Shown in pieces: positions 663-33,503 of a DNA stretch of 50,594 nt (the first letter of the stretch is position 1; every line of letters starts with the position of its first letter). The notes under the pieces are model-generated. The model saw only the letters and a program-made list of their open reading frames with translations, had not been told where the DNA came from and did no database searches. This DNA comes from Caldifarciminota bacterium. Its GTDB lineage: Bacteria; Hydrothermota; Tepidihabitantia; SM23-42. Location: NCBI GenBank assembly GCA_016936155.1, contig JAFGPO010000102.1, positions 1 through 50,594 on the forward strand. Direction: 5' to 3'. Made by a program: the position numbers and the translations under genes.

Positions 663-3600
663 TTATTCCAAATACACGAACTTCCTGATCACCGTCTCCT
701 CAGGCCGGGTGATTTTGACAAAGTAAATACCATTAGTAAGCCGATCGGGGTATGCATTCAGGATGCCGGCGCCGTTGAGCATGCCATCATACACGGTCAT
801 CACTGACCGGCCGGTCGCGTCGTACAGCTCAGCCGTAACACGTTGATACCCCGGTACGTTGTACTGGATGCCGATATTCCCGGACGTCGGGTTTGGGGAG
901 ATCGCAAATACCGGCTGCAGGTTCACATTCTGTTCTTCCTGTTCCAGCTTGCCCATGGCATTCTCCCACCAGGACTGGGCGCTGTCCGAATGGATGCGGG
1001 CGTACGACGTGTCATTGCCGCCGACCACCGCGTATACGACCCGCTCACTGCCGCCGGCCGGGATCGTGAACGGTCCGGCCGACACGCAGATCGACCAATT
1101 GTCGGTCCGGTTCGAGTTCGGCATGTTGATCCATCCCCGAAGCAGGCTGTCCTTGACCGCTTCGGTCATCATGGACGAGGGTTCGACGTACAACGCATGA
1201 TCGATCGCGGTGAGGTTCGCCGCGCTCAATGGTTCGAGAAGCCGGATGCCGACCGTGGGATGACGCGAGGTGAGAGATCTGCACATGTACGTGAAGCGCC
1301 GGGTTGCGATCGTGCGTACGATGTTATTCGTGTAATTGATCATATCAAAATCGAACATCATGCCCGAGTAAAAATTGGTGAGCGGCGCACTTCCGTTGTT
1401 ATGGTAATCGAAGCAAATGATGATAAAGTCAGCGTACGCCGGATCCGAGAGCATGAGACTCCATTGTTCGATCTCCAGGCCCTTGGGCGAGGAGTGGCCC
1501 GCATCGCTGTACCAGGTAACGTATTCCTCGTCGGCTTTGAGCGGCGGCAGGATCGGCGTTATTGTATCCATGATTTCGAAATCATGCTGGATATTCGACG
1601 CTGGATGGTCGTAGAATCGGTCAGCAATGTAGGCCGGCCCGGTGCCGCACACCATGCTCCCGTAGTACAGGCAGCCGTATGACGCGACAGTCGGGTATTT
1701 GAAGCCTGATCCTTCGCCGTACGGATACGTCGTGCCGAATCCGCCGAATGACGTGACCGAGAGCACGCAACACCCGGTGTCATGGTCAACCCAGACCGGT
1801 CTGAGTTGCGGGATCACGCCTGCGATTTCGGCAAAAAATGGATCCCAGGAACCCTGTGCCGACTGTGTGTGAACGATAAATTCTATTTCGGTCCCCTGTG
1901 GTGTCGCGGATGAAACCTGGATCTGAAAATGGTCGCCGACCGCGGAATCGCCGGCTGCAATCGTGCCGTAGTTGGATGTGGAATCAAGGAACGTTACATA
2001 CGGGCAGTCGGTTCTCAATGTGCCTGCGACGCTGGTCGCGGACGTGCTTCCCCGATTCATCAGCCACACATCGAGGACGACGGTTTCGCCTGGATCAATG
2101 TGCTGGTTATTATTTCCGGTCGCATCGTCGATTATGCATGACCGGAATGTCAGGCAAGGCTGGTTTTGCGAACCGCTCACCGCGCACGTGCCTTCGTACA
2201 CGCGACAGTCCGGCGCCGTGACCGTCACGAGCATGGTTCCGGATGTGGGATCAACAAACAGGTCGACCCAGCCCTGGGAATTGGTCAGACCGACCGAGTA
2301 CACCTCAGTGCCCTTGATGCAGCACACGCGCGCATCCTTAAGCGGCGCGCTGTTCGCGCTGGCATTCACCCGGAACATCTGGGGAGCGCCTGGGATCGAG
2401 GACGCGTGGGTGACGGCAAGCGCCGCGGGATTCTTGCTGTACAGCGGCACAGTCGGGTCGCCGAACAGCGTGTTCTCGAACACGCACCAGCGCGTTGGCG
2501 ATTGCGCGAGCGCCATGGCGCGGCAATCGTCTTTTGCCCGCGCATGCATGGCGCCAACCTCGTGGATCGACGACACGATGAGCGCCTTAAAGATCCCAAG
2601 GTCCAGGATCTCGGAGGGTCCCATTGCGGGCGGGTACCCGAGGCCGTAGCGTGAATTCAGGAGCGCGGCAATGCACCCGCCGTTCGGGTAATTGACCAGG
2701 CTTTCGGCAATGCAATCCCCACCGTCAAAACTGCCGCAGTCGCAATTGATGCCGTTTATGATGTCATACTTGATGCCGTTGTTCAAGCCCGGGATCTGGG
2801 ACATGCCCAGGACGCCCAGGCTGGTTGGGCTGCCATGCGCGGCAACGTGGCAGAGCTGGAATCCGTGGTTGAGCGAATCGCGGGTCTGGGTATACCCCGG
2901 ATCTTTAAGTTTGGCGATTTGCCATGTGCCAGGGAAATATGACGCGATGACATTATTGGGATTTTCGCCATGGTATGGCGGAAAAAGGTCTTCTGACGGG
3001 AGTAGCAGTTTTTTAAGGTAGGTAGTGTCCGGGTGTTTTTCGAACATCGTATCCTTGTACGTGAAAGTATTGATGTTCGTAGCATTGTCGATCGGCGCCC
3101 GGCCGATATACACATCATGGAACAGGTCAACCGTATCCTCCATTTCACCGAAGTAATTATTGTTGTTGCTGTCCCAGGACCACTGGAGGTCTGCGTAGTA
3201 CATGTCAGTCGGGATGTTTCCCGTGATCGTGCTGTCCTCGATGATAAGTCGCGTCTTGCGGTCCGGAACAATGTTGTCATCGCCGCCCAGGAGCACGTAT
3301 TTCAATCCTTTATTCTGCCACCAGTCCCGGATGAAGTTCCGAATTTTTTCCTGGTTATCCCGTCCAGAATACGCGGCATAGATAGAATCGGTCCGCACCA
3401 CAACCGTGTTGATGCCCTTTTTGATCTTCCAGTTTCTGAACGCATTCCAGTTCGAGACCAGGCCTGCGCTCGTGATGATTGCGTAATCGATCTCGCCGTC
3501 ACGCAGTTGCTTTGATGCCGGGGTCCAGTGCGCGAGCGCCTCAGGGTTGGCGACCAGGGCTTCGACCTCGCGGCTGAACAGGTCGATCTGCGACTGCGTG

Positions 3601-4142
3601 AGTGTCACTGGTTCGTGCCGGCTTTCCTCATATTGGACGCGGATCGTCATTTCCGTATGGATCTTCAAATGCTTGCTGTCCGGGAGATACTGGACCGGAT
3701 GGACTACGACGCCCGCGATGCGGAAACCCGCAAGGCAGCCGCTCGGCACCGTGCTGATGATCTCGGCAGGGTACGGGGTGGATGATCCATAAACTGTTGG
3801 ATCAGGAGCGACAAACGGTATATCTTTGTTCTGTGAGAATGGTCGGATCGGCTGGGCCGGGTACGGCGTGTAGATGTCCGGCAATTCAGCGGATTGGCTT
3901 GACACAATGTCTGCCCGGATGATTTCCGCGGAGGGGGGCAAGAGGAAATAGAGCACCTTTACAGGCAGGATCGGTGTTCCCGGTTCCGCGGTTGAAAAAG
4001 TGTTCGCAGAAAGGATGCAGTCATACCCGTTAAGCGAAATGATGTTCAACTCATCGGGTGAAAATGTCAGAGTATAGGTAAGGTGTGAACCAGGGGAAAT
4101 GCTCGCGAAGAGCAAAGGCAGTAAAATAATAAATTTGGTCAT
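663..4142 (-). CDS. Gingipain-like C25 family cysteine peptidase with T9SS sorting domain
   Basis: Predicted secreted protease, 1159 aa. ATG at 4142 is chosen over a frame extending 50 codons upstream because AAAGGAG lies just before it, it begins a signal peptide (MTKFIILLPLLFASIS), and a consensus promoter lies inside the longer frame. A propeptide-like region (~20-210) precedes the C25 domain (~215-580), which has the KYVLLGGDD strand, a catalytic His in HVAAHG (~His436) and a Cys-rich NCDCGSF segment that should hold the nucleophile (~Cys467-469). Next come a CARDB/Ig-like module (~665-780) and a large beta-rich region. The last ~80 residues form a T9SS-type sorting domain (SPNPTSG at its start, GIYFVKI near the end). 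Substrate unknown; in known T9SS systems such proteases are surface-attached or released. Confidence 0.9.
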   Translation of the reverse strand: MTKFIILLPLLFASISPGSHLTYTLTFSPDELNIISLNGYDCILSANTFSTAEPGTPILPVKVLYFLLPPSAEIIRADIVSSQSAELPDIYTPYPAQPIRPFSQNKDIPFVAPDPTVYGSSTPYPAEIISTVPSGCLAGFRIAGVVVHPVQYLPDSKHLKIHTEMTIRVQYEESRHEPVTLTQSQIDLFSREVEALVANPEALAHWTPASKQLRDGEIDYAIITSAGLVSNWNAFRNWKIKKGINTVVVRTDSIYAAYSGRDNQEKIRNFIRDWWQNKGLKYVLLGGDDNIVPDRKTRLIIEDSTITGNIPTDMYYADLQWSWDSNNNNYFGEMEDTVDLFHDVYIGRAPIDNATNINTFTYKDTMFEKHPDTTYLKKLLLPSEDLFPPYHGENPNNVIASYFPGTWQIAKLKDPGYTQTRDSLNHGFQLCHVAAHGSPTSLGVLGMSQIPGLNNGIKYDIINGINCDCGSFDGGDCIAESLVNYPNGGCIAALLNSRYGLGYPPAMGPSEILDLGIFKALIVSSIHEVGAMHARAKDDCRAMALAQSPTRWCVFENTLFGDPTVPLYSKNPAALAVTHASSIPGAPQMFRVNASANSAPLKDARVCCIKGTEVYSVGLTNSQGWVDLFVDPTSGTMLVTVTAPDCRVYEGTCAVSGSQNQPCLTFRSCIIDDATGNNNQHIDPGETVVLDVWLMNRGSTSATSVAGTLRTDCPYVTFLDSTSNYGTIAAGDSAVGDHFQIQVSSATPQGTEIEFIVHTQSAQGSWDPFFAEIAGVIPQLRPVWVDHDTGCCVLSVTSFGGFGTTYPYGEGSGFKYPTVASYGCLYYGSMVCGTGPAYIADRFYDHPASNIQHDFEIMDTITPILPPLKADEEYVTWYSDAGHSSPKGLEIEQWSLMLSDPAYADFIIICFDYHNNGSAPLTNFYSGMMFDFDMINYTNNIVRTIATRRFTYMCRSLTSRHPTVGIRLLEPLSAANLTAIDHALYVEPSSMMTEAVKDSLLRGWINMPNSNRTDNWSICVSAGPFTIPAGGSERVVYAVVGGNDTSYARIHSDSAQSWWENAMGKLEQEEQNVNLQPVFAISPNPTSGNIGIQYNVPGYQRVTAELYDATGRSVMTVYDGMLNGAGILNAYPDRLTNGIYFVKITRPEETVIRKFVYLE

Positions 4143-4170
4143 GATGGCTCCTTTGTTATTACTACTGTTA

Positions 4171-4198
4171 ATTATACAATGAGTGAAGGGATTGTCAA
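4171..4198 (-). promoter_or_regulatory. Promoter of the C25 peptidase gene
   Basis: Read on the minus strand: TTGACA (4193-4198), 16-bp spacer, TATAAT (4171-4176). Start is expected near 4165, giving a ~22-nt leader that contains the AAAGGAG Shine-Dalgarno. Both boxes match consensus exactly. Confidence 0.85.
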
Positions 4199-4416
4199 TG
4201 AAGCATGTTAAAGCAGCATTGTGATCGGTTGTCATATTACTGCGTATAAGGCACCTGGGTAACCAGGTAATTCTTTCGCATTGCGTTTTCACACTACGTT
4301 CTCTTCGGTTTGTATATTCTGTTATTATTCATAGGTTACAAGGAATATGCGTATCTGCACTTAACATAGCACAGATGTCGTGGTCGCGTTTGCTCGATAA
4401 AGAGCGCTTGTGTGTC

Positions 4417-9483: not shown

Positions 9484-10719
9484 ATGAATACGATAATCGT
9501 TGTTTTTATGATTCTGTTCTGCTTCTTCTCGTGCGGAGCAAATGAAAAAGTGACAAAAGCGGATGACCAGGGCGCGAGTATCGACGGTAGCGCGGCGATC
9601 ATCCAGGCCAACAATGAATTCGCCTTTGACCTGTATTCCAAACTCAGCAAAGATGATCATGATAAGAACATCTTTTATTCGCCGTACAGCATCCTGGTTG
9701 CCCTGACCATGACGTATGAGGGCGCAAAAGGAAAAACTGCCGAGGAAATGCAGTCGGTTCTGCACATTCCGGAAGATGCAAATGTGAGGCGGCCGAACTT
9801 CGCGCGCATATACAACACGATTAACGAGGAGGGCAAGGAGTATGAGCTGTCTACGGCGAACGCACTTTGGGCGCAACGCGATTTTACATTTCTCAAGGAC
9901 TATACCGGTAACATCGAGAAGTACTATGGGGGTAAGGTAACAAACTGCGATTTCGCCGGGGCAGCGGAAAAAGCGCGTCAGACCATCAACACGTGGGTTG
10001 CGGATCACACCAATCAGAAGATCAAAGACTTGATCCCTCCGGGAGCAGTCGGCGATGCCACCCGGCTGGTGCTCACGAATGCGATCTATTTCAAGGGCAC
10101 ATGGATCGTGCAATTTGACGAAGCGGACACCCGGGAAGAGGATTTCCGAATGAGGGCGGGAAATAGTGTGAAGGTCCCCATGATGCGACTGGTCGATTCT
10201 GAAGCGCGATTCAAATATGCGGCAACTGAGGAACTTCAGATAGTGGAGCTTCCCTATAAGGGCGGTGATCTTGCGATGCTCATTATCCTGCCCAGAGAGA
10301 GCGAACTATCTGGTGTCGAAGGTTCGATCAATCCCGATGCGCTATCAGCCTGGCAGGATATGCTTCGCGAGCAGGAAGTCCATATCTACATCCCGAAATT
10401 CAAATTCACGACCAAGTATTTCATGGTCAAAACATTGAGCGATATGGGCATGCCCACGCCGTTCACTTCAGGCGCGGATTTTTCCGGGATGAATGGTGCC
10501 AGGGATCTGTTTATCTCAAACGTTATCCATCAGGCGTATGTGGAAGTGAATGAAGAAGGCACAGAAGCCGCAGCCGCCACCGGAGTGGTTATGGAAATTA
10601 CATCGGTCGGGCCCGAAACACCTGTTTTCCGGGCTGATCATCCATTCATTTTCATCATCCAGGAGACAAAGACAGGGAATATCCTGTTCCTGGGCAGGGT
10701 GTGCAACCCGGGCGAATAG
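9484..10719 (+). CDS. Serpin family protease inhibitor, predicted lipoprotein
   Basis: A 411-aa serpin. The N-terminus MNTIIVVFMILFCFFSCG is a lipoprotein signal with Cys at ~17, so it is probably membrane-anchored and periplasmic or surface-exposed. The serpin core spans ~40-411 with signature elements: NIFYSPYSILVALTMTYEGA, NAIYFKGTW, FRADHPFIFII near the C-terminus and the closing FLGRVCNP. The reactive-centre-loop hinge (EEGTEAAAATGVVM, ~357-370) has the small-residue pattern of inhibitory serpins, so it should trap a serine or cysteine protease. The scissile bond lies in the following ITSVGPETPVF stretch but cannot be fixed by eye. With two secreted C25 peptidases in the window, self-protection is a reasonable inference. 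Leaderless promoter; monocistronic. Confidence 0.93.
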   Translation: MNTIIVVFMILFCFFSCGANEKVTKADDQGASIDGSAAIIQANNEFAFDLYSKLSKDDHDKNIFYSPYSILVALTMTYEGAKGKTAEEMQSVLHIPEDANVRRPNFARIYNTINEEGKEYELSTANALWAQRDFTFLKDYTGNIEKYYGGKVTNCDFAGAAEKARQTINTWVADHTNQKIKDLIPPGAVGDATRLVLTNAIYFKGTWIVQFDEADTREEDFRMRAGNSVKVPMMRLVDSEARFKYAATEELQIVELPYKGGDLAMLIILPRESELSGVEGSINPDALSAWQDMLREQEVHIYIPKFKFTTKYFMVKTLSDMGMPTPFTSGADFSGMNGARDLFISNVIHQAYVEVNEEGTEAAAATGVVMEITSVGPETPVFRADHPFIFIIQETKTGNILFLGRVCNPGE

Positions 10720-13443: not shown

Positions 13444-14544
13444 TTATTCGGTCAACAGTATTTTTTGCGCAGCGCTAAGATCCCCTGCCGTTAATTCCAT
13501 AAAATAGATACCCGCAGGAAGCCGCTCACCCTTCGCATTGTCGCCATACCATGTTATTGTATGGGAACCCTTAACAGCATTCTCGTCAACGATGGTTCTT
13601 ACAAGCGTGCCGGTGATATCGTAGGCGCGGATCGACACCCATCCCGTGTTGTCGAGCGAGTACTGCACAGTGGTATTGTGCCGGAAAGGATTCGGCGCGG
13701 CCGTGAGCGTGACCAATTGAGCTTCAACGCCGTGTTCAGAGACTCCATGTGGCGGCGGAATAAAAATCTGGCAGTCGGTCGAGACTGGATTACCGCCAAC
13801 AACGAGCACGTTGCCGTTATTCAACAGGGTCGTTGCCAGGTTCCCGCGGCCCGGGTTCAGGGCATCGGTATCTTCCCACTCTCCTGAATATACATTGTAC
13901 AGTTCACAGTCTGACAGAGCGCCTTCGCCGCCGATCAGCATGACCCGGGGATCGCCGCTCTTCAGCGCAAGGCACGCATGTCCAATGCGACCTGGATCAA
14001 TAGTATTGTTTGTAAGAGACCAGGTGCTGGTATTCACGTCGTAGATTTCACATTGAGGGATGTTGTAGTAGGTCTGGTCCTGCCCGCCTGCCACCAGCAC
14101 GTTGCCGGTTATAAGCTTAACCGCAGACAGCTTCCATCTTCGATAGTTCAAGGGGTTGGTGGTCATCCAGGTGTCGGAAACCGGATCGAAGATGTGGCAG
14201 CCCGCCATGCTCGATCCAAAATCGCGGAAGCCACCCACCGACAAAACCCGTCCGTCGTTGAGACGGCACATGTCGTGTCCCCACTGCGGTTCTGGCAACG
14301 AATTGGTCAGGGTCCAGGTTTCAGTGGTTGGATCCCATAGTTCACATGCCGATATCAGTGTCATAATATCCAGGCCACCGGTGACGAGCACGCGACCGTC
14401 ATCCAGCACAACCGCTTGCGCATATGCCCGCGCCGTGTTCAGGGTGTCGGTCATGGCCCAGGAATGGGTGACCGTATCATAGATTTCGCACGTGCCATGC
14501 CCGAGACCATAGGGGTATCCTCCCAATGACCATGACGCGCCCAT
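13444..14544 (-). CDS. Kelch-repeat T9SS protein, C-terminal part (downstream of a frameshift)
   Basis: Continues the kelch protein that starts at 14794 but in another frame. The ATG at 14544 is fortuitous; homologous coding resumes near 14520 (GGYPYGLGHGTCEIYD). There are about six kelch blades with DGRVLVTGGL / CELWDPTTETWTLTNSLP motifs, the galactose-oxidase-like type. The final ~85 residues are an FlgD-like/T9SS sorting domain: AAPNPFRHNTTVQYSL, ITWYGDNAKGERLPAGIYFM, ending KILLTE. If the frameshift is real, this part would lack a signal peptide and not be exported. If it is a sequencing error, the whole gene (13444-14794, ~450 aa) is a normal secreted propeller. Confidence 0.75.
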   Translation of the reverse strand: MGASWSLGGYPYGLGHGTCEIYDTVTHSWAMTDTLNTARAYAQAVVLDDGRVLVTGGLDIMTLISACELWDPTTETWTLTNSLPEPQWGHDMCRLNDGRVLSVGGFRDFGSSMAGCHIFDPVSDTWMTTNPLNYRRWKLSAVKLITGNVLVAGGQDQTYYNIPQCEIYDVNTSTWSLTNNTIDPGRIGHACLALKSGDPRVMLIGGEGALSDCELYNVYSGEWEDTDALNPGRGNLATTLLNNGNVLVVGGNPVSTDCQIFIPPPHGVSEHGVEAQLVTLTAAPNPFRHNTTVQYSLDNTGWVSIRAYDITGTLVRTIVDENAVKGSHTITWYGDNAKGERLPAGIYFMELTAGDLSAAQKILLTE

Positions 14545-14794
14545 CCTGGAGCAGGACCGCCTCGAGGTTCTGGCGACCGATCGTGAGACTGTCGGTGTAT
14601 GACCAGGTTCCCGCTAGATCATCATAGATCTGGCAGACTTTTGATCCACCGCCGCCGATCGAGAGAACATTTCCATTACCGAGCGTGACCGCAACATGCT
14701 CGCTTTGCCCGGACAAAAGCGATCCGGTCGCGTTCCATTCCGCATACGCGCATATGGTGATCATCATCAACAGAATGACTGTTTTACGTAACAT
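14477..14794 (-). CDS. Kelch-repeat T9SS protein, N-terminal part (frameshifted)
   Basis: ATG 14794 has an AAGGAGG Shine-Dalgarno and encodes a clear signal peptide (MLRKTVILLMMITICAYA), then one and a half kelch blades (NGNVLSIGGGG, WSYTDSLTIGRQNLEAVLLQ, DGRVMVIG). The frame leaves the family consensus at DGRVMVIG and stops 14 codons later. The expected continuation GGYPYGLGHG is present in the other frame at 14520 and beyond. A single-base difference around 14519-14525, in a G/C-rich run, explains the break. An upstream in-frame ATG (14815) is ignored because it overlaps the Shine-Dalgarno. Confidence 0.75.
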   Translation of the reverse strand: MLRKTVILLMMITICAYAEWNATGSLLSGQSEHVAVTLGNGNVLSIGGGGSKVCQIYDDLAGTWSYTDSLTIGRQNLEAVLLQDGRVMVIGRIPLWSRAWHVRNL

Positions 14795-14907
14795 ATAATC
14801 CTCCTTTTTTAACATAGTACACTATACGCGTGATTGTGCGCGGACAGCGGGCGATGTAAACTGGCAAACGATTGTGCGGCAAGGACACGGGCGCGCGGAC
14901 CGGCGTC

Positions 14908-14936
14908 TTGACAAAAAGTCTTAAAATATATAGAAT
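14908..14936 (+). promoter_or_regulatory. Promoter of the HTH-TPR-BTAD regulator
   Basis: TTGACA (14908-14913), 17-bp spacer, TAGAAT (14931-14936). ATG follows 19 nt later without a recognisable Shine-Dalgarno. Confidence 0.7.
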
Positions 14937-14955
14937 GTTTCTATAGAATGGTGAA

Positions 14956-17085
14956 ATGAAGCATTATGACGCAGACATAAAACTTAAGGCCGTAAAGCAC
15001 TACCTGGGCGGGAGCACCCTGGAAAAATGCGCAGGGCAGTATCGGATCCATCGCAATACGATATGGCGCTGGGTGAAGAAATATAGAAGCGGAGGAGCAG
15101 GCGCGTTGACGGATGATATCCCGTTGTACCGGCATTGGAAGAGACTACCGGAAGAAGTGGAGGAACGGGTTATCGCGTTGAAGGAAAAAACACCCGGTAT
15201 GACAGTCCGAAAGGCTCGAAGATTATTAATGGAAAAAGGTGTGCAGATTTCTCTGAAAAGTATCTGGAGCGCCTGGCAGCGGTATGGGCTTACCGGATTT
15301 GCCCGGAAAGAACTCTCGCACTCATATGATGACTTTCTGGGCAGTGTAGTATCGCCTGCTTTGTTGAATGAAATCCGGGCGCTCATTGACCAAAATGAAT
15401 TACAGCAGGCTGCTGATATCGTAAATGCGCTGCCCCTTTTTCCTTACAACAGCGTTATCCTTAAGATACCTTCACGTGTGCTGTCTCTGCGCAGGCAGGT
15501 CAACCGCATCCGGGCAGAGTTCGCGGCAATTCCGCTGGCTCAATACCGCAGGAAATCCCAAACTCTGCGCAGGAAACTGAAAGAACATGGCATGAATTAT
15601 TCCTCGCTCTGGGTCATGCTCGGAGAGTGTTACGCGTTGATGTGGTCTGGACAGCCGGGTGAAGTGTTACCGATAGTAGCAGAAGCAAAAAATTTGATGA
15701 AGGGAATGCGCGACGCACGACTGCGGTTCTTTATGCTGCTGCTGGAAGGACAGGCTAATGGAGTTGAAATGAGGATCTGCAAAGCGCAGGCATGCGTCAA
15801 TCAATGCAAGGTGATCGCGCGGACATCGAGAAATCCACATTTTTTCATCGGCGGCGTCGGGGCGATATATTCCACAATGGGATATTACCGGGAAGCGCTG
15901 CGCTGGACAGACAAAGCGCTTCAAGGCGCCGCGCCGAGTTTTCAGCGGCAGTTTAATGCAAATATCGCCCAGTTTTATGGAACGGCGGGTGATTACCGGG
16001 CCGCTTTCCGTGCATTAAAAAAGGCGCAGTTGGACGATTGGGGATTCAAATCCCGCGCTGGTCTCATCCAGCTATACGCGCACCTGGATCAGGGGGATTT
16101 TCAACAAGCGCAGGCATTCGCAGTCGAAACCCTCATGCGGGCTAAAAAAGAGGGTGTGCGCAGCATGATTCACCCGGTGACGCTCATCCTTGCAAGCTGC
16201 CACCGGGCGTCTGGAGATGTGAAAAAAGCGAAGCAGTTGATAAAAGAAATCGTTCCACTGCTTGATAAATACAATTTGAAACAGGAATACTGGCAACGAA
16301 ATATCATCCTGGACGATATCCAGCTGCCGGAAGAGGTAGTGAACGTGCCGAGCCTGCAGCTCGCGTTTCTTTTGCGCCGGGCACAGCAGAGCCTTTTGGT
16401 AAGCGACTACCGGGCAGCCTACACCTATGCACAGAGAAAAAAGGTGCTCGGGATTTTCATGCGGTTGATCCCTTTCTTTCCAGAACCTATCCTGCGTATG
16501 CAGGGGCGCGGCCAGGATACTTGTCTGCCGCGAACATTCCTGGACATGCCCGTGTTCCGGATCGATGCCCCGGTATTCGACGTACGTTTTCTGGGAAAGA
16601 TCCGCGTGCAGAGAAGGGGGGAGCCGGCGCGGCGCGTGGCATTGGGTCCGAAAGACAGTGCATTTCTCATTCACATGGCCTTGAACAAGAATAAACGCAC
16701 GCCTTTGAAGGATCTTTATGATAATTTCTGGAGAAACAGCACGCAGCCGGCGCGTAACCTCTCTCATCTTTTAACGCGGCTGCGCAAAAACCTTGCCGTC
16801 CCATCGCATAGCGTGAGGATCCAGGCCGGGACACTCTATTGGGATATATATTTTTCAACGGACTATGAACATGTTAAGGAACATTTAGCCAAGGCGCGTT
16901 TTTATGAACAGGCAGGTGAACAGGAATATGCGCGGCGCGAATACAAGCGCGCTTTCCACTGGTACCGCGGTGATCCCTTTAAAGGCATGTACGATGACTG
17001 GTCAGAGCGTGTGCGCCGGTCGATACTGAATACCGTGGAGGTCGCCACAGTACGTTATGAGGAACTGAACTGCGTAAAGGTGTAG
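14956..17085 (+). CDS. Regulator: transposase-like HTH + TPR + SARP-type winged helix/BTAD
   Basis: A 709-aa protein with an unusual domain order. Residues 5-45 are an IS-transposase-like helix-turn-helix (DIKLKAVKHYLGGSTLEKCA, then RIHRNTIWRWVKKY), and 64-112 a second one of the Tc1/IS630 linker type (TPGMTVRKARRLLMEKGVQI). No DDE catalytic domain follows. Residues ~140-500 are helical TPR/MalT-like repeats. From ~541 a winged helix of the SARP/OmpR kind begins (FDVRFLGKIRV, LGPKDSAFLIHMAL, ARNLSHLLTRLRKNL), then a bacterial transcriptional activation domain (~634-705: ARREYKRAFHWYRGDPFKG). It is probably a DNA-binding regulator in which a transposase DNA-binding domain was captured by a SARP-like activator. 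Target unknown; it sits between secreted kelch genes. Starts about 20 nt after its promoter. Confidence 0.8.
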   Translation: MKHYDADIKLKAVKHYLGGSTLEKCAGQYRIHRNTIWRWVKKYRSGGAGALTDDIPLYRHWKRLPEEVEERVIALKEKTPGMTVRKARRLLMEKGVQISLKSIWSAWQRYGLTGFARKELSHSYDDFLGSVVSPALLNEIRALIDQNELQQAADIVNALPLFPYNSVILKIPSRVLSLRRQVNRIRAEFAAIPLAQYRRKSQTLRRKLKEHGMNYSSLWVMLGECYALMWSGQPGEVLPIVAEAKNLMKGMRDARLRFFMLLLEGQANGVEMRICKAQACVNQCKVIARTSRNPHFFIGGVGAIYSTMGYYREALRWTDKALQGAAPSFQRQFNANIAQFYGTAGDYRAAFRALKKAQLDDWGFKSRAGLIQLYAHLDQGDFQQAQAFAVETLMRAKKEGVRSMIHPVTLILASCHRASGDVKKAKQLIKEIVPLLDKYNLKQEYWQRNIILDDIQLPEEVVNVPSLQLAFLLRRAQQSLLVSDYRAAYTYAQRKKVLGIFMRLIPFFPEPILRMQGRGQDTCLPRTFLDMPVFRIDAPVFDVRFLGKIRVQRRGEPARRVALGPKDSAFLIHMALNKNKRTPLKDLYDNFWRNSTQPARNLSHLLTRLRKNLAVPSHSVRIQAGTLYWDIYFSTDYEHVKEHLAKARFYEQAGEQEYARREYKRAFHWYRGDPFKGMYDDWSERVRRSILNTVEVATVRYEELNCVKV

Positions 17086-20458: not shown

Positions 20459-23400
20459 CTAAGAACACTGATTACTATCTTTGCTCAGTTCGGTCTGCTC
20501 GAGCAATTTTTCCACGTGCTCGACCTGCAGTGCGGCGTGCATTTTTTCGTAAATATTTTTTGCCTTTGTAAGATAATCCTTTGCCTGATCATGCCGTTTG
20601 TTGGCGATGAGGACTTCGCCCAGTATTACCAGGCAGTCAGCGTGTTTCTCGGTAAACCCGGCTGATTCCGCCGCCGCAACCGCATGTTTGATATTTTTTA
20701 TTCCCTCGTCATATTTTCCCTCGATCAGGGCCAATGCCTTGCCAAGATATTTCATCCCGGAGATCTCACCAGTGGCGTCCTTTCGGGCGCGCGTGCGCGC
20801 AAGATGGGTTTTTATCAGTGGAATGGCACGAGGGTCTTTAGTATCCAGATATACTTCAGCAAAACTGAGGTCGAGTTCGTGGAGACTCAACTGATCCCCG
20901 GCTTCCAGGAGCAGCTGCTTCGCTTTTTCATAGAGTTCAAGGGCTTTGTCGCTGTCTCCAATACGGTAGTAAAAACTACCGTAGTAGTTGTACACACTTC
21001 CGAGCGCGCCCTTATCCTGGGTCGTTTCGGCTAAGGCAACGGCTTTTTCGTAGTACGCAGCCGCTTGTTCCCGGTCACCTTTACTGGCAAGATTGTACGC
21101 GAGGGTTGGATAGATCGTGACCATGTTGCGCACATCGTTTATTTTTTCAAAGAGCATGCGTGATTTTTCATAACACTTGATCGCTTCATCGAGTTCACCG
21201 ATATGTTCATAAAGCAGGCCGAGGTTAAAAAGCACCACCCCCTGGCTTCGAACGTCCCCGAGCTTTGTGCGTTCCTCGAGATTTTTTTCATAGTAAGAGC
21301 GTGCGGTCTTAAAATCACCCTTGATCGCATTGTAGACACCAAGGTTGTTCAAAATTCTGGTTTCAGTGTTTTTGTCGCCGATCTTGGTGCATAGCTCGAA
21401 GGCCTTGTTTGTGTATTCTATTGCCTGGTCGATTTTGCCCGAGTAACGCCACACTGATCCGGCAAGCACGTAGGCTTCTACAAGTTGCTTTAGATCGTTT
21501 TGCGTTTCATATATTTTCATGGCCTGCTGTACCGGTTCAATTCCATGTTCCGGCTGCCCAGTGCGCCAGGCAAAATGCGCCTTCATTCTCAGTCCGAAGG
21601 CCTCGGAGCCGACATCGCCGATTTTCTTCGAGAGCGTGATGCCTTCGTTTATCAACCGTTCGGCTTCCTCTACCTCCAGTTTGAATTCCAGGAGAGCCCG
21701 GGCAAGGGAGTAGATGACGTCTGCGCAGAGCGCGCTTTCCGTGTCTTTTACAGAAGTGAGCGTGGTTTTCAGGATCGCGATCGCTTCATCGATCTGCGAT
21801 TTTTGCACCAGCACCCTGGCATATTTCACGTTCAAACGGGCTTTTCCCAGAAGGTCAGTGTGTTTTTCCCGGGCTTCGCAGTAATGCGCGGCAGCAGTCT
21901 GGAACTCACCCTGCAGGTATTTTATATCCGCGATCTTTTCCAGAATATCCGCCTCTGTGCTGCCATTATCGGCGATAGAGCGGGCCTGATCGTAAAATGC
22001 GAGGGCTTCTTCATTCGCATACAGCGTAGCTGATGCATTTCCTGCCTGGATCGAATAGTGCAGTGCTTTTTCCTTATTCTCGCACTTGAAGTAGTGGTGC
22101 GCAAGCACAGAAAGGTAATCATCCATTTCTTCCTTGAAAGCACTTTCGATCGCTTCGGCAATGACTCGGTGATATATCAATCGTTCGCTTTTCAACAGGC
22201 TGTTATAGGCGACCTCCTGGAACAGGGCATGCCGGAAGGCATAGTATGGTTTCTTTTCCTGGATCATTTTGATGCAAAATTCAGAGGTTTCAAGTTCGTC
22301 AATATGCTGGCAGATATCCCGGTCCTTTATGACCATTTCAAGTAATGCCTGCGGAAAGGTGCGACCGATGATCGAGGCGATCTTCAAGATATATTTTGCT
22401 TCCTTGTTCAGGCTGTCGATGCGGGACGTAACCGCCGCCTCGATCGAACCGGGCAGCTGCAGATCAAATTCAGTGAGATCCTTTCCACTCTCAAGGATCT
22501 TTGATTCGCTCATACGCCGGACAATCTCTTCAATGAAAAACGGGTTACCGTCGCTCTTTTGGATGATGTATTCTTTCATGTTTGTTGGAAGCTGCTGGCC
22601 GACAAGATTGTCGATCAGCATAGCGCTATCATCCGGAGAGAGATTCTTAAGGTTCACGTCCGCCTGGAAAGACGCATAATCCGACGCGATCGTATCCAGC
22701 AGGGATTTGATCGGTTTGATGTTACCAAGCCGGTAACTTAAGAACAGCGCTGCTTTGTGATTCTTGACGATCGGCAGCAGAAAATGAAGCAGTTCGATCG
22801 AAGTCGCGTCAAGCCACTGGATGTCGTCCACCACAACAATTAGTCCTTTGGAATCGGCAAGCTTTTCGCATAAGGAGGTGATCGCAAGAAAGATCTGCAA
22901 TTGCAAAGTGTGGCTGTCCAGATGGATTATTCTCTCCTTTTCCTTTTCGCCAAGCGGCAGGTTTAGGAGCTTATAGAGATAAGGCGCGACCTCTTCAGCC
23001 TCAACTTTCAAGATATCCTTTATTTTGTCTTTAATAATGTTCTCGGTTTGATCACTGGCAGTCCCATCGGCTACCAAAAACCGGTGGAGACAGTCACTGA
23101 AAGCCTTGAAAGGATTGGCGCTCTCGTATGAAACGCCCCGACCGTCGATCAAAATCTTATCCAGTGCCGCGATCGCGAGGTATTTTTTGAATTCATAGAG
23201 CAATCGGGACTTGCCCACCCCGATCTCACCCTTTATCACGTTGATTGAGGATGCATTGTTCTTCAGGTTTTCGACCGATCGCTTCAGTCGATCGATCTCC
23301 GGATCGCGTCCAATGAGATCTGAGTGCAAAGCGGTCAAACCGAATTCTGAACCCCACTTTTTTCCGATCACCTCATAGGGGGTTATCATGGTTGATTTGC

Positions 23401-24082
23401 CCTTAAGCTGTACTGGCTGCAATGCGATGCAGTCAAACGCGTGACGCGTGCGGTAGTACGTTTCGGGCCCGATGTAAATGCTGTTAATCGGACTGAGGTC
23501 CTTCAGCCGCTGGGCGACGTTCACGGTATCACCCATCACCGTATAATCCATCTGGAAGTCGGAACCGACTTTACCGGCAATGACCTGACCGGTGTTGATG
23601 CCTGAATGAATGTTGAGTTTTTTGAGGGATTTGTCCAGGGTTTTATTAACCTCATTGAGCGCGTGCTGCATCTCAGTGCACGCGAGGATCGCCCGTTCTG
23701 GATCGTCCTCATGCGCGACCGGCGCGCCGAAGATCGCCATTATGCAGTCGCCGATGAACTTATCAATAATGCCTTCATAGCGGTACACCATGATGCTGAG
23801 TTTGCGAAAACATTCATTCATGAGCAAAGTCAGTTCTTCGGGATCGAGCCGTTCTGACATGGAGGTGAAACCCGAGATGTCAACAAAAAGAACAGTTACG
23901 TCCCTTCTTTCTTTGGAAATTGAATCTTTTGTCATGAGGATCTTTTGTGCCAGTGACTTTGGGATATCCTGGCGCACCAGGTCCATGCGCGATTGCCCGG
24001 CAGGCGAGCGGAGATCATGGCCGCACTCCGGGCAGAATTTATTTTTCGGGAGAATATCAGCGCCGCACTTGGAACATTGCAT
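20459..24082 (-). CDS. Zinc ribbon + class III nucleotidyl cyclase + AAA ATPase + TPR signalling protein
   Basis: A 1207-aa cytosolic protein. A zinc ribbon opens it (Cys3, Cys6, Cys17, Cys20). The class III adenylate/guanylate cyclase domain (~58-235) has both metal-binding Asp in FVDISGFT (Asp68) and KFIGDC (Asp112) and the YTVMGDTVNVAQRL segment, so it can be active; the purine-specifying residues cannot be judged by eye. A STAND/AAA_16-like ATPase (~255-620) has Walker A GEIGVGKS (285-292) and Walker B LIVVVDDIQWLD. The C-terminal half is TPRs (~690-1190), for example YEKNLEERTKLGDVRSQG. This is a known layout of large soluble signal integrators, where TPRs sense a partner. It is paralogous to the gene at 29901-33503. 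Leaderless promoter. Confidence 0.93.
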   Translation of the reverse strand: MQCSKCGADILPKNKFCPECGHDLRSPAGQSRMDLVRQDIPKSLAQKILMTKDSISKERRDVTVLFVDISGFTSMSERLDPEELTLLMNECFRKLSIMVYRYEGIIDKFIGDCIMAIFGAPVAHEDDPERAILACTEMQHALNEVNKTLDKSLKKLNIHSGINTGQVIAGKVGSDFQMDYTVMGDTVNVAQRLKDLSPINSIYIGPETYYRTRHAFDCIALQPVQLKGKSTMITPYEVIGKKWGSEFGLTALHSDLIGRDPEIDRLKRSVENLKNNASSINVIKGEIGVGKSRLLYEFKKYLAIAALDKILIDGRGVSYESANPFKAFSDCLHRFLVADGTASDQTENIIKDKIKDILKVEAEEVAPYLYKLLNLPLGEKEKERIIHLDSHTLQLQIFLAITSLCEKLADSKGLIVVVDDIQWLDATSIELLHFLLPIVKNHKAALFLSYRLGNIKPIKSLLDTIASDYASFQADVNLKNLSPDDSAMLIDNLVGQQLPTNMKEYIIQKSDGNPFFIEEIVRRMSESKILESGKDLTEFDLQLPGSIEAAVTSRIDSLNKEAKYILKIASIIGRTFPQALLEMVIKDRDICQHIDELETSEFCIKMIQEKKPYYAFRHALFQEVAYNSLLKSERLIYHRVIAEAIESAFKEEMDDYLSVLAHHYFKCENKEKALHYSIQAGNASATLYANEEALAFYDQARSIADNGSTEADILEKIADIKYLQGEFQTAAAHYCEAREKHTDLLGKARLNVKYARVLVQKSQIDEAIAILKTTLTSVKDTESALCADVIYSLARALLEFKLEVEEAERLINEGITLSKKIGDVGSEAFGLRMKAHFAWRTGQPEHGIEPVQQAMKIYETQNDLKQLVEAYVLAGSVWRYSGKIDQAIEYTNKAFELCTKIGDKNTETRILNNLGVYNAIKGDFKTARSYYEKNLEERTKLGDVRSQGVVLFNLGLLYEHIGELDEAIKCYEKSRMLFEKINDVRNMVTIYPTLAYNLASKGDREQAAAYYEKAVALAETTQDKGALGSVYNYYGSFYYRIGDSDKALELYEKAKQLLLEAGDQLSLHELDLSFAEVYLDTKDPRAIPLIKTHLARTRARKDATGEISGMKYLGKALALIEGKYDEGIKNIKHAVAAAESAGFTEKHADCLVILGEVLIANKRHDQAKDYLTKAKNIYEKMHAALQVEHVEKLLEQTELSKDSNQCS

Positions 24083-29900: not shown

Positions 29901-32900
29901 CTATTGTTTCAGTTTTTTGATAAGGGATTTCGCATGTTTTATCCAGAGCTTGGCGTCCATGTTCTGATAGGCTTTCAATGCCTGGTCCAGGTATTCCAGC
30001 GCCTGTTTGTTGTCACCCTGTGCCGCATAGAATTCCCCGAGCGCGTATAGCCCGTGCGCGTATTGTTCGACCGCGTTACTTTCCACCGCGATCGCGATTG
30101 AGCGTTTGATATTTTTCAGCCCCTCGTCGATGTTGCCGGCAACGAACACCTGCGCTCGTCCCAGATTACGCATAGCGAACATCTCGTTGTTCTTGATTTT
30201 CGATTCGACCGCGTACTTGAGCGCTTTTTCCGCGCATTCGACTGCGCGCGGATCTTCTTTGCGGATATACAGATCGGCAAAATCCGAATACATGTCGGAA
30301 AAGATATGAATGTCCGCGCTGTCACTCAGGGCCTCCCGTGATTTATCCAGGTATTTTTCTGCCTTCTCCAGATCATCAGTATCCAGGTAATAATCGCCGA
30401 ATCTGAAAAAAGCATCGGCAATGAGTGCTGGATCCCCGGTCTTTTTTGCCAGGTCATACCCTTTATTGTAAAGCTCATATGCTTTTTCCTTATTACCATG
30501 ATTCACGTAAAAGCTGCCGATAAGGTGGTACGCGGTGATGGTCGACCGTATCTCATTGATGCTCTCGAACAAATCCAGGGCTTTCATGTATACGTCGAGT
30601 ACTTTATCATGTTTGCCAAGGTATTTGTACATAAGCCCGATGTTCATGAGCCCGATACCCTCGCCTTTCTTGTCACCGAGCTTTTCCCGGATCACTACGT
30701 TCTTCTTAGTATAGTCGATCGCCAGCAAGTGTTCCCCCAGGTACGAGTAGTACGCGCCGATATTGTTATAGCACATCGCCAGGACACGTTTATTGCCGAT
30801 CCGTTCGCTGCACTCGATCGCCTGCTTCACGTATTCTATCGCCGCGGTCATATTGCCGACCGCGCGGTGGATCGCTGCGACGAGCAGAAGAACAAAGGGC
30901 ATGACCTTTACGTCGTTGAGCGCTTCATATATGACCTGGGATTCTTTTACCAGGTCAAGCGCCTCATTATTCTTTCCCTGTCTCCAGAGCGTGTGGGCTT
31001 TTGCGCGGAGCCCTTCAGCATAAAGCCTTCGGTCATTGATATTCTGGGCGATCGTAAGACCCTGGTCCACGAGTTCTACCGCCCGTTTGGTTTCAGCCTT
31101 TGATTCAAGGAGTATGTTCGACAACGTATAGAGCAGAGTAACGAGTCCGGGCGAATCCTTACCTCCCATTGTCCGAACGCCCTGTTCCATGAACGCGATG
31201 CTCTCATCAAGCCGTCCGGTCTGCTCGAGCACGCGTCCGATGCGCTCAATGAGAAGGGCACGGCCGGAAATATCCTCTTCCAGTTCAAGGGCGCGCGTGA
31301 AGTGATCGTGCGCGTTCTGGGTGCGGCCGATAAGCAGTTCGATATCCGCAATCTTCTGGAGGATTTCGGCACGTGTTTCATTGGTCTCAGCGGACGCAAG
31401 GGCCTGGTTATAGAATCCCAGCGCTTCTTCGTTCGCGAACAGACCCGCTGCTTCATCCCCGGCTTTGATCGAGTACTGCAGAGCTTTCTCGACATTGCCG
31501 GAGTGATGGTAGTGGTATGCCAGCGATGCCAGGTAGCCGTCGATCTGTTCGGTGAAGTCGTTCTCGATCGTCTCGGCGATGAGCTTATGGTAGATCATGC
31601 GTTCGCTTTTGAGCAATCCTTTGTACGCCACCTCCTGGAACATCGCGTGGCGGAACGCGTAGAACGGCGTGTTATCCTTTTTGATAGTAACGAGGAATTC
31701 CGATGCGACCAGATCATCGATGTGCTGGTATATCTCACGATCCTTGACCACATGCTCGAGCAGTTCCTGAGGGAAGGACCGGCCGATGATCGACGAGATA
31801 CGCAGCAGGTATTTAGGCTCTTTGCCCAGGCTGTCGATACGCGAGGTGACTGCGGCATCGATCGAACCGGGTATCTGAATGCTATCGCTCGTTATATCCC
31901 GCTGTTTCAACACCCCGGATTCGATGATCCGGCGCACAATCTCTTCGATAAAGAAAGGATTGCCGCCGCTCTTGGCAATGATATATGCCTTCAATTGCTC
32001 GGGGATCTCCTGGCCGATAAGATTGTCAATGAGTTGCGCGCTATCCTCAGCGGACAGGTTCCTCACTTCTATCTCCTGGGTTTGATCCTTATATTCGCGG
32101 CTAATCGTCGCGAGCAGCTTTTTGATCGACAGGATCGTGCCGACCCTGTAGCAGAGGTAAATGCCAATCCGGTTCTGTCTGATGAGCGGCAGGAGGAAAT
32201 TGAGCAGCTCAATGGTCGTTGTTTCGAGCCACTGGATGTCATCGATGATGAGAAGCATCGGTTTGTCCTTGGTGATGTTCTCGAACAATGATGTCACGGC
32301 GAGGAAGGTCTGGAGCTGCAGGGCATGGCTGTCCAGGTGCTCTATTTTTTCCCGGTACCGCGGCTCAAGGGTCAAATTCATCATCCGGTACAAATACGGG
32401 AGTATGTCACCAGCTTCTAGTTTATCAGGAAAGAGCGCGCGGAGTTTTTCCTTGACGATATCTTCGCGCAAATCGGCGATTGAAAGATCACCAGTAATAA
32501 AGTAGTGGCGGAGAGCGTCGGCAAACGTTTTAAGCGGGATCGAACTTTCGTATGAAACCCCCCGGCTGTCAATAAGCGCGATGTCGGGCGCGGATATCGT
32601 AATAAATTTCTTGAATTCAAACAGCAGGCGGGATTTACCGACACCGATCTCACCCTTGATGATGTAGATCGAGGACCGTCCTTTCTTGAGCTGCGCGTAC
32701 CCGTTCTTAAGCTGAGAGAGCTCGCTATCCCGACCGATCAGGTCCGAGTGCACGGCACCGAGCCCGAATTCACTGCCCCATTTCCGGCCGATCACTTCAT
32801 AGGGACGCACCTTTTCCACCTTCCCTTTTAACTGCATCGGCTCGAGCGCCATAAAATCAAATGCATGGCGGGAGCGATTGTATGTTTCCGTGCCCACAAG

Positions 32901-33503
32901 AATGCTGCTCGACGGTGCGACATCCTTGAGGCGCTGGGCAGTATTGACCGTATCACCCATGACCGTGTACTCCATTTGCAGGTCCGAGCCGATCCTTCCG
33001 GCAATGACCTCGCCGGTATTCACGCCCGAGTGAATAGTCAATTTTTTGAGCGCGGGATCGAGGTTCTCGTTGATCTCGCTGAGCGCGCTTTGCATGTCCA
33101 GGCACGCGAGGATCGCCCTTTCCGGGTCGTCCTCGTGCGTGACCGGGGCGCCGAATATCGCCATGATGCAATCGCCGATGAATTTGTCGATGATCCCCTC
33201 GTACCGGTACACCATCGCGCCGAGATTTCGGAAACATTCGTTCATGAGCAGGGTCAATTCTTCAGGATCAAGCCGTTCAGACATGGTTGTGAACCCGGAA
33301 ATATCAGCGAACACGACCGTGACATCCCGGCGTTCTTTCTGGACCGTGTCCTTGGTCAGGCGGATCTTTTTAAGCAGGGATTCAGGGATGTCTTTTTTTA
33401 CGATGTCCATGCGGTCTGCGGCAACGGACTGCATCTTGGTGCCGCATTCACCGCAGAATTTGTTCTTTGGAGGATTTTCCGCACCACACTTCGGGCAGCG
33501 CAT
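29901..33503 (-). CDS. Second zinc ribbon + class III cyclase + AAA ATPase + TPR protein
   Basis: A 1200-aa paralog of the protein at 20459-24082 with the same order: zinc ribbon (Cys3, Cys6, Cys17, Cys20), class III cyclase (metal Asp67 in FADISGFT and Asp111 in KFIGDC), ATPase with Walker A GEIGVGKS and Walker B MLLIIDDIQWLE, then C-terminal TPRs. The N-terminal half is nearly alignable with the other copy throughout (for example MNECFR and the YTVMGDTVN box), while the TPR half has diverged more. This suggests shared catalytic output but different sensing. Both copies keep every catalytic residue I can check, so neither is a pseudo-enzyme by eye. Promoter close to leaderless (-10, 5 nt, ATG); 87 nt after ileS. 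Confidence 0.92.
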   Translation of the reverse strand: MRCPKCGAENPPKNKFCGECGTKMQSVAADRMDIVKKDIPESLLKKIRLTKDTVQKERRDVTVVFADISGFTTMSERLDPEELTLLMNECFRNLGAMVYRYEGIIDKFIGDCIMAIFGAPVTHEDDPERAILACLDMQSALSEINENLDPALKKLTIHSGVNTGEVIAGRIGSDLQMEYTVMGDTVNTAQRLKDVAPSSSILVGTETYNRSRHAFDFMALEPMQLKGKVEKVRPYEVIGRKWGSEFGLGAVHSDLIGRDSELSQLKNGYAQLKKGRSSIYIIKGEIGVGKSRLLFEFKKFITISAPDIALIDSRGVSYESSIPLKTFADALRHYFITGDLSIADLREDIVKEKLRALFPDKLEAGDILPYLYRMMNLTLEPRYREKIEHLDSHALQLQTFLAVTSLFENITKDKPMLLIIDDIQWLETTTIELLNFLLPLIRQNRIGIYLCYRVGTILSIKKLLATISREYKDQTQEIEVRNLSAEDSAQLIDNLIGQEIPEQLKAYIIAKSGGNPFFIEEIVRRIIESGVLKQRDITSDSIQIPGSIDAAVTSRIDSLGKEPKYLLRISSIIGRSFPQELLEHVVKDREIYQHIDDLVASEFLVTIKKDNTPFYAFRHAMFQEVAYKGLLKSERMIYHKLIAETIENDFTEQIDGYLASLAYHYHHSGNVEKALQYSIKAGDEAAGLFANEEALGFYNQALASAETNETRAEILQKIADIELLIGRTQNAHDHFTRALELEEDISGRALLIERIGRVLEQTGRLDESIAFMEQGVRTMGGKDSPGLVTLLYTLSNILLESKAETKRAVELVDQGLTIAQNINDRRLYAEGLRAKAHTLWRQGKNNEALDLVKESQVIYEALNDVKVMPFVLLLVAAIHRAVGNMTAAIEYVKQAIECSERIGNKRVLAMCYNNIGAYYSYLGEHLLAIDYTKKNVVIREKLGDKKGEGIGLMNIGLMYKYLGKHDKVLDVYMKALDLFESINEIRSTITAYHLIGSFYVNHGNKEKAYELYNKGYDLAKKTGDPALIADAFFRFGDYYLDTDDLEKAEKYLDKSREALSDSADIHIFSDMYSDFADLYIRKEDPRAVECAEKALKYAVESKIKNNEMFAMRNLGRAQVFVAGNIDEGLKNIKRSIAIAVESNAVEQYAHGLYALGEFYAAQGDNKQALEYLDQALKAYQNMDAKLWIKHAKSLIKKLKQ

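Follow-up and report, generated by a model that had tools for sequence, protein, structure and literature searches.

A multicopy bacterial regulator family with a transposase-type head and a SARP-type tail, encoded divergently from secreted-protein genes

We studied a regulator gene, REG, located at 14956-17085 (+) of the window, i.e., the whole stretch of 50,594 nucleotides analysed here from a Caldifarciminota bacterium. REG is an uninterrupted ORF of 709 aa and represents a multicopy, patchily distributed family of the WOR-3/Stahlbacteria phylum, which is apparently undescribed. Computation established its domains, its pairing with a divergent gene for a secreted protein, a promoter cassette specific to these pairs, and purifying selection on the protein. 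The preliminary description had missed that REG is multicopy, that a surface-protein gene lies divergent to it and that a promoter cassette is conserved between the two; together these point to a likely function, and with moderate confidence we favour REG as a locus-dedicated SARP-type activator of the divergent gene for a secreted T9SS-type protein; its contacts with DNA, activation, autoregulation and the signal are the parts of this model that we infer (see below).

Domain layout of REG

The N-terminus of REG (residues 1-118; 14956-15309, +) is a double helix-turn-helix (HTH) of the IS481/paired type, recognized with Pfam, NCBIfam, AF2, Foldseek and homologous IS481 transposases. Pfam matched HTH_28 at residues 9-53 (E 2.3e-7) and HTH_32 at 35-106 (E 5.5e-9), and the NCBIfam models of IS481 (E 3.7e-13) and IS630 (E 4.9e-11) matched with their transposase HTH part only. 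These profile matches and the AF2 model agree with the preliminary description, which had read this end from the letters as two transposase-like HTH units and had seen no DDE domain. Pfam found no DDE, integrase or nuclease domain in REG and the AF2 model has the solenoid in the place of the DDE; a hidden DDE domain was rejected, as neither program showed one. In other genomes of the phylum, the closest non-family proteins matching the HTH-pair profile were proteins of 320-450 aa corresponding to IS481-type transposases, and Pfam scored an integrase (rve) core in three of the five tested. In Foldseek, the predicted fold of the HTH pair came closest to that of Pax paired domains, TnsB, Mos1 and Tc3, with modest E-values (0.009-0.16). 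Global TM-scores were low and single units superposed at ~2 Å; a differing angle between the two modelled units would probably account for the low global scores. Orthologue pairs gave dN/dS values of 0.12-0.31 in the HTH region and 0.09-0.31 over all REG domains, i.e., purifying selection, and thus the head is in use and is no relic. The earlier idea of an IS-type HTH pair joined to a SARP-type regulator and kept there by selection was therefore borne out, both by the IS481 relatives and by the dN/dS of the HTH region.

The head is followed by a TPR-like alpha solenoid, the presumed sensor, at residues 124-530 (15325-16545, +), an OmpR/SARP-type winged helix at 538-629 (16567-16842, +) and a short BTAD at 636-705 (16861-17070, +), the best-conserved part of the family; all three were called from Pfam, AF2 and Foldseek. 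Structure prediction of the full chain, made by AF2 on a 61-row homologue alignment (mean pLDDT 89.7), reproduced the order previously read from the translation: two three-helix HTH units, a long solenoid, the winged helix and the short BTAD. The TPR nature of the middle part, also previously proposed, was confirmed by a TPR_19 match (E 2.6e-7, Pfam) together with the AF2 solenoid, for which Foldseek additionally returned the TPR solenoids of MalT domain III, Rap and NprR. No P-loop/NTPase domain was matched in REG by Pfam or NCBIfam, and residues 124-530 were all-helical in AF2.

The profile matches of the C-terminus to Trans_reg_C and BTAD were weak. In the window REG, Pfam placed Trans_reg_C at 560-623 (E 0.0019) and BTAD at 636-688 (E 0.11), both under the curated cut-offs. 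BTAD was matched in 21 and Trans_reg_C in 8 of the 61 REG homologues (E<=0.01). The AF2 model showed a beta-hairpin, three helices and a wing in residues 540-629 and then helices at 636-652, 656-668 and 681-705, and Foldseek superposed the C-terminus on AfsR SARP chains over 170 columns with an rmsd of 2.3 Å. The weak match was judged real because of the homologue matches, the model, the AfsR superposition and a match to a Streptomyces BTAD-domain regulator (see below), which support the assignment. Run alone against the PDB, the C-terminal profile gave CadC at E 0.00015 and a weak match to AfsR at E 0.02. The window REG stops ~40 aa ahead of the family consensus end of BTAD.

Four known systems resemble parts of REG. 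The large SARP AfsR of Streptomyces coelicolor (8k60, 8hvr) has, like REG, a winged helix followed by a BTAD of the same fold, a TPR region in the same chain and an associated DNA element 8 bp from the -10 of a promoter whose -35 is poor or missing. In AfsR-type SARPs, however, the winged helix and BTAD are N-terminal, whereas in REG they occupy residues 538-705 of 709; in addition, REG showed no NOD/ATPase, has a short BTAD and a transposase-type HTH pair in front, lacks a detectable second direct repeat in its DNA (see below), and belongs to another phylum with other target genes. MalT and L196, a STAND-type protein of the same genome, share with REG the MalT-like TPR solenoid and, behind it, a DNA-binding domain at the C-terminus, but REG has no ATPase domain and its N-terminus is the HTH pair. 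L196 (1066 aa) has a complete C-terminal BTAD along with TPR and a P-loop sequence (GYGKTT) of the ATPase-like kind. The preliminary description had taken the domain order of REG as the reverse of that in known SARPs: the C-terminal position of the winged helix and BTAD was upheld, and its uniqueness was not, given L196. The IS481/IS630 transposases and other proteins with a paired-type HTH (Tc3, Mos1, TnsB, Pax) resemble REG in sequence and fold of the tandem HTH, but REG has no DDE/RNase H domain, is joined to a regulator and is multicopy without sign of transposition. Finally, the Rap/NprR peptide-sensing regulators have a similar TPR solenoid fold but differ in their DNA-binding ends. A REG with two DNA-binding ends, as proposed earlier, is plausible. 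As had been supposed, no described family with the architecture of REG appeared in the searched papers, nor did any account of its pairing with surface-protein genes, most subscription journals being outside the coverage of both searches.

Distribution of the family and its recombining 3' ends

The genome of origin contains a second full-length REG paralogue with 31% identity over residues 4-701. REG matches occurred in 26 of the 61 genomes searched (a few being single-domain only), and genome G001 had about ten near full-length copies. Phylum-wide, 33 of 147 genomes matched, five of them weakly, and several near-complete relatives presented no match; the distribution is therefore patchy. Carriers were Candidatus Stahlbacteria, WOR-3, TA06 and some bins labelled Cloacimonadota or Spirochaetales. 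A profile search of contigs with the window protein alone gave no match and that with alignment A2 gave 31 loci. The search for the same domain order in other genomes, as the preliminary description had proposed, returned dozens of full-length homologues that keep it, and a transposase gene misjoined to a regulator during assembly was rejected, given these homologues and the paralogue. No REG copies were found in phages or viral contigs, and the sole plasmid match, a tblastn match of residues 563-690, was to the SARP domain of a Streptomyces BTAD-domain regulator; cargo of a mobile element or phage was rejected on these grounds. A defence system was likewise rejected, PADLOC giving no match.

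Within genomes, REG paralogues were mostly near saturation along the gene and alike over the last 250-350 bp. Nucleotide identity of one pair at L076 (G024:C10) rose from about 40% to 92-99% over the last windows, and 3'-end homogenisation was also seen in the G001 and G015 copies. The nearest relative lay in the same genome for 21 of 60 copies by the BTAD, compared with 9 of 61 by the HTH and 7 of 62 by the TPR part; between L059 and L060, from two genomes, dS was 0.10-0.15 in the 5' parts and 1.14 in the 3' part. Orphan REG 3' fragments adjoin surface-protein genes. These patterns indicate gene conversion or crossing-over at the 3' ends, for which no dedicated recombinase would be needed, and tandem modules (see below) possibly aid the exchange. 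Two other features of these ends were observed. Many G001/G015 copies carry at the same place in the BTAD a near-identical NEIRQKKRRTPSAKCRGGNM-like insertion, conserved far above the rest of the protein (C-terminal ends of L037:5836-8121, L041, L046, L047, L050, L059, L063 and L070). Several G001 REG genes (L040, L043, L047, L050, L058 and L070) share, on their 3' side, short dispersed repeats of about 30-220 bp with 91-99% identity.

The divergent partner and the promoter cassette

The layout is nearly always that of a partner gene divergent from REG, with a median gap of about 130-150 bp; tandem partner-REG units also occur. One 150-gene cluster of secreted proteins, many with a terminal FlgD_ig/Por_Secre_tail, was present around REG in 57 of 61 loci. 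A divergent gene with a T9SS/FlgD tail, called by tail HMM plus cluster membership, lay directly upstream of 58 of the 65 REG copies, versus 1 of 277 control genes taken from control stretches totalling 400 kb (Fisher p 1.7e-56); for several of the REG genes without a counted partner, the partner was truncated or a spurious short ORF intervened. Among the partners are subtilases, C25 gingipain-like peptidases, and BNR and Kelch proteins. SprA, a core component of T9SS, was found in 27 of 31 relatives, with none of the 20 good-quality genomes lacking it, and none of the 14 control genomes had it, so the partner tails are probably T9SS sorting signals. The partner in the window (13444-14794, -) has a signal peptide, Kelch repeats and a FlgD_ig/Por_Secre_tail C-terminus. 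Its frame is broken into ORFs 14477-14815 and 13444-14544 (-), overlapping at 14477-14544, either by a frameshift of the organism or by a sequencing error. Elsewhere the window encodes two C25 (gingipain/PorU-like) peptidases (666-4292, -, with propeptide and T9SS tail; 45048-47567, +), a full-length serpin (9484-10716, +; E 1e-126), the genome itself encoding many secreted proteases, and two large paralogues with zinc ribbon, adenylate/guanylate cyclase domain, AAA_16 ATPase and TPR (20462-24082 and 29904-33503, both -).

The REG promoter (14908-14936, +) consists of TTGACA (14908-14913), a 17-nt spacer and TAGAAT (14931-14936), and corresponds to a family-wide motif: a near-perfect TTGACA-N16/17-TATAAT followed directly by nTTTCC plus a purine. 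In the window TTTCC takes the form TTTCT (14938-14942, +), just before the predicted transcription start. The start codon usually follows the motif by 0-10 nt, and hence REG transcripts are predicted to have little or no leader. The combined motif was present in 34 of 65 REG upstream regions, compared with two occurrences in 400 kb of control sequence, counting both strands. Among REG copies from genomes or families outside motif discovery, the REG promoter element was present in 19 of 19 (score at least 13 of 17). A three-codon frame, ATG-GTG-AAA-TGA (14948-14959, +), begins just past the predicted REG transcription start and overlaps the REG start codon (ATGA); judging from its position, it could couple or tune translation of the near-leaderless mRNA. 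No Rfam element was found near REG, the only Rfam match of the window being a tRNA elsewhere.

The partner promoter is of a different kind. In the window its -10, TATAGT (14821-14826, -), has no -35 hexamer, and GCACA (14835-14839, -), a 4/5 match to ACACA and the place where the C-terminal winged helix is predicted to bind, lies 8 bp upstream of it. Over the family, the best TTGACA match 16-18 bp from the partner -10 equalled random expectation, and full sigma70-type promoters preceded 3 of 64 partners versus 23 of 88 other tail genes and 67 of 231 other genes. ACA was located exactly 10 bp upstream of the -10 (8 bp for ACA[C/T]A), and the distance to the REG -35 was 73-78 bp. ACA-N10-TATAAT at 70-81 bp from the REG -35 occurred in 44 of 64 loci (shuffles: mean 2.9, maximum 9). 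The strict form, ACA[C/T]A-N8-(-10), preceded 30/64 REG-divergent genes versus 1/88 other tail genes of the same loci, and that sole positive adjoins a truncated REG divergently; counts were 1/231 for other genes, and control stretches gave 0/18 and 2/357. The REG loci are related and not fully independent, and the motif was first scored on the set in which it was found. Searched as a regular expression, the entire cassette matched 50 times in REG loci, and 800 kb of control strands gave no match. With strict patterns over 147 genomes, 13 of 16 cassette matches and 18 of 29 REG promoter matches were at REG genes, the listed places being matched by us to known REG positions. Nearly all held-out copies of family f16 had the ACA element, often extended to ACACAATTT; it was absent in about a third of loci, and from the f20 and f21 copies, though the partner was there in most of them.

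In SARPs the 3' repeat lies 8 bp from the -10 and poor -35 elements are compensated (PMC10936776). A SARP-type second direct repeat was rejected here, since spacings of 11 or 22 bp were not enriched in REG loci. The partner promoter resembles SARP targets in the position of the element and in the missing -35, but not in direct repeats; by position REG would work like a SARP activator, though its architecture is not the canonical one. Between the two promoters A/T tracts recurred at about 10-bp phase, and a dyad scan of the intergenic regions mostly recovered the partner ribosome-binding site and TTGACA.

Proposed function and alternative readings

In the mechanism that we favour, a strong, near-leaderless promoter of its own would supply REG. 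The winged helix at its C-terminus would bind ACA[C/T]A in place of the partner's -35, 8 bp upstream of the -10, from where the short BTAD would engage RNA polymerase by AfsR-like sigma adaptation and switch on the gene of the secreted T9SS-type partner. The TPR solenoid probably senses a peptide, a protein or a cell-envelope signal. The IS481-derived HTH probably reads a second intergenic site, either the phased A/T tracts or TTTCC, which would confer locus specificity and autoregulation of REG. A broader version of this activator model, which we regard as less likely than not, is a modular surface display: each genome would hold many pairs of a secreted T9SS protein and a dedicated regulator, the REG head holding its own promoter and the SARP tail driving the partner, and recombination of the 3' ends would allow modules to be duplicated and their heads exchanged, so that sets of surface proteins could be selected.

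Divergently encoded DNA-binding proteins often repress their own synthesis. REG might accordingly act mainly as a repressor of the shared divergent region (of itself, the partner or both) until released by a ligand of the solenoid; this fits the habit of such proteins, the near-consensus REG promoter, which would need restraint, and TTTCC at its transcription start. We consider it unlikely as the main role, because a partner without a -35 and with an element at the activator position of SARPs fits activation; autorepression of REG combined with activation of the partner is possible and forms part of our best explanation.

Quite improbable, in our judgement, is a cross-acting network in which all REG paralogues bind the same ACACA and TTTCC and jointly control many surface genes. 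Most copies of a genome do carry these two elements, and paralogues of one genome have homogenised C-terminal ends. However, paralogues of one genome share only ~39% identity in the HTH and ~46% in the winged helix, the long variable stretch between the promoters could provide private specificity, and the element is almost missing from non-adjacent surface-protein genes.

The IS481-type head, the tandem partner-REG units, the exchange of sequence between paralogue 3' ends and the orphan 3' fragments near surface-protein genes could also suggest a mobile or recombining module, in which REG, as a relative of transposases, would shift or rearrange the genes of surface proteins and be no transcription factor. 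We give this very little credence: REG has no nuclease, integrase or DDE domain and no copies in phages, plasmids or viral contigs, the paralogues have long been diverged over the whole gene, ordinary homologous recombination explains the 3' ends, and the conserved features are promoter elements and a C-terminus of an RNA polymerase-contacting domain type. Equally remote is a cassette merely inherited by duplication of the gene pair, with REG acting in trans elsewhere and the partner regulated otherwise, for although modules clearly duplicate together and could carry the elements along, the cassette is also kept in distant families, and element and spacing persist while the paralogous partner and REG sequences are saturated, which argues for selection on both.

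The dedicated activator would represent a likely wiring rule for many secreted T9SS-type proteins, including subtilase- and gingipain-like proteases, i.e., one activator per gene, with the pairs recognisable from DNA alone in a phylum known mostly through metagenomes. If true, sigma adaptation of the SARP type would reach a phylum outside Actinobacteria, and the predicted element upstream of the -10 is directly testable. REG also offers a clear example from bacteria of selection maintaining the DNA-binding head of a transposase within a regulator of transcription.
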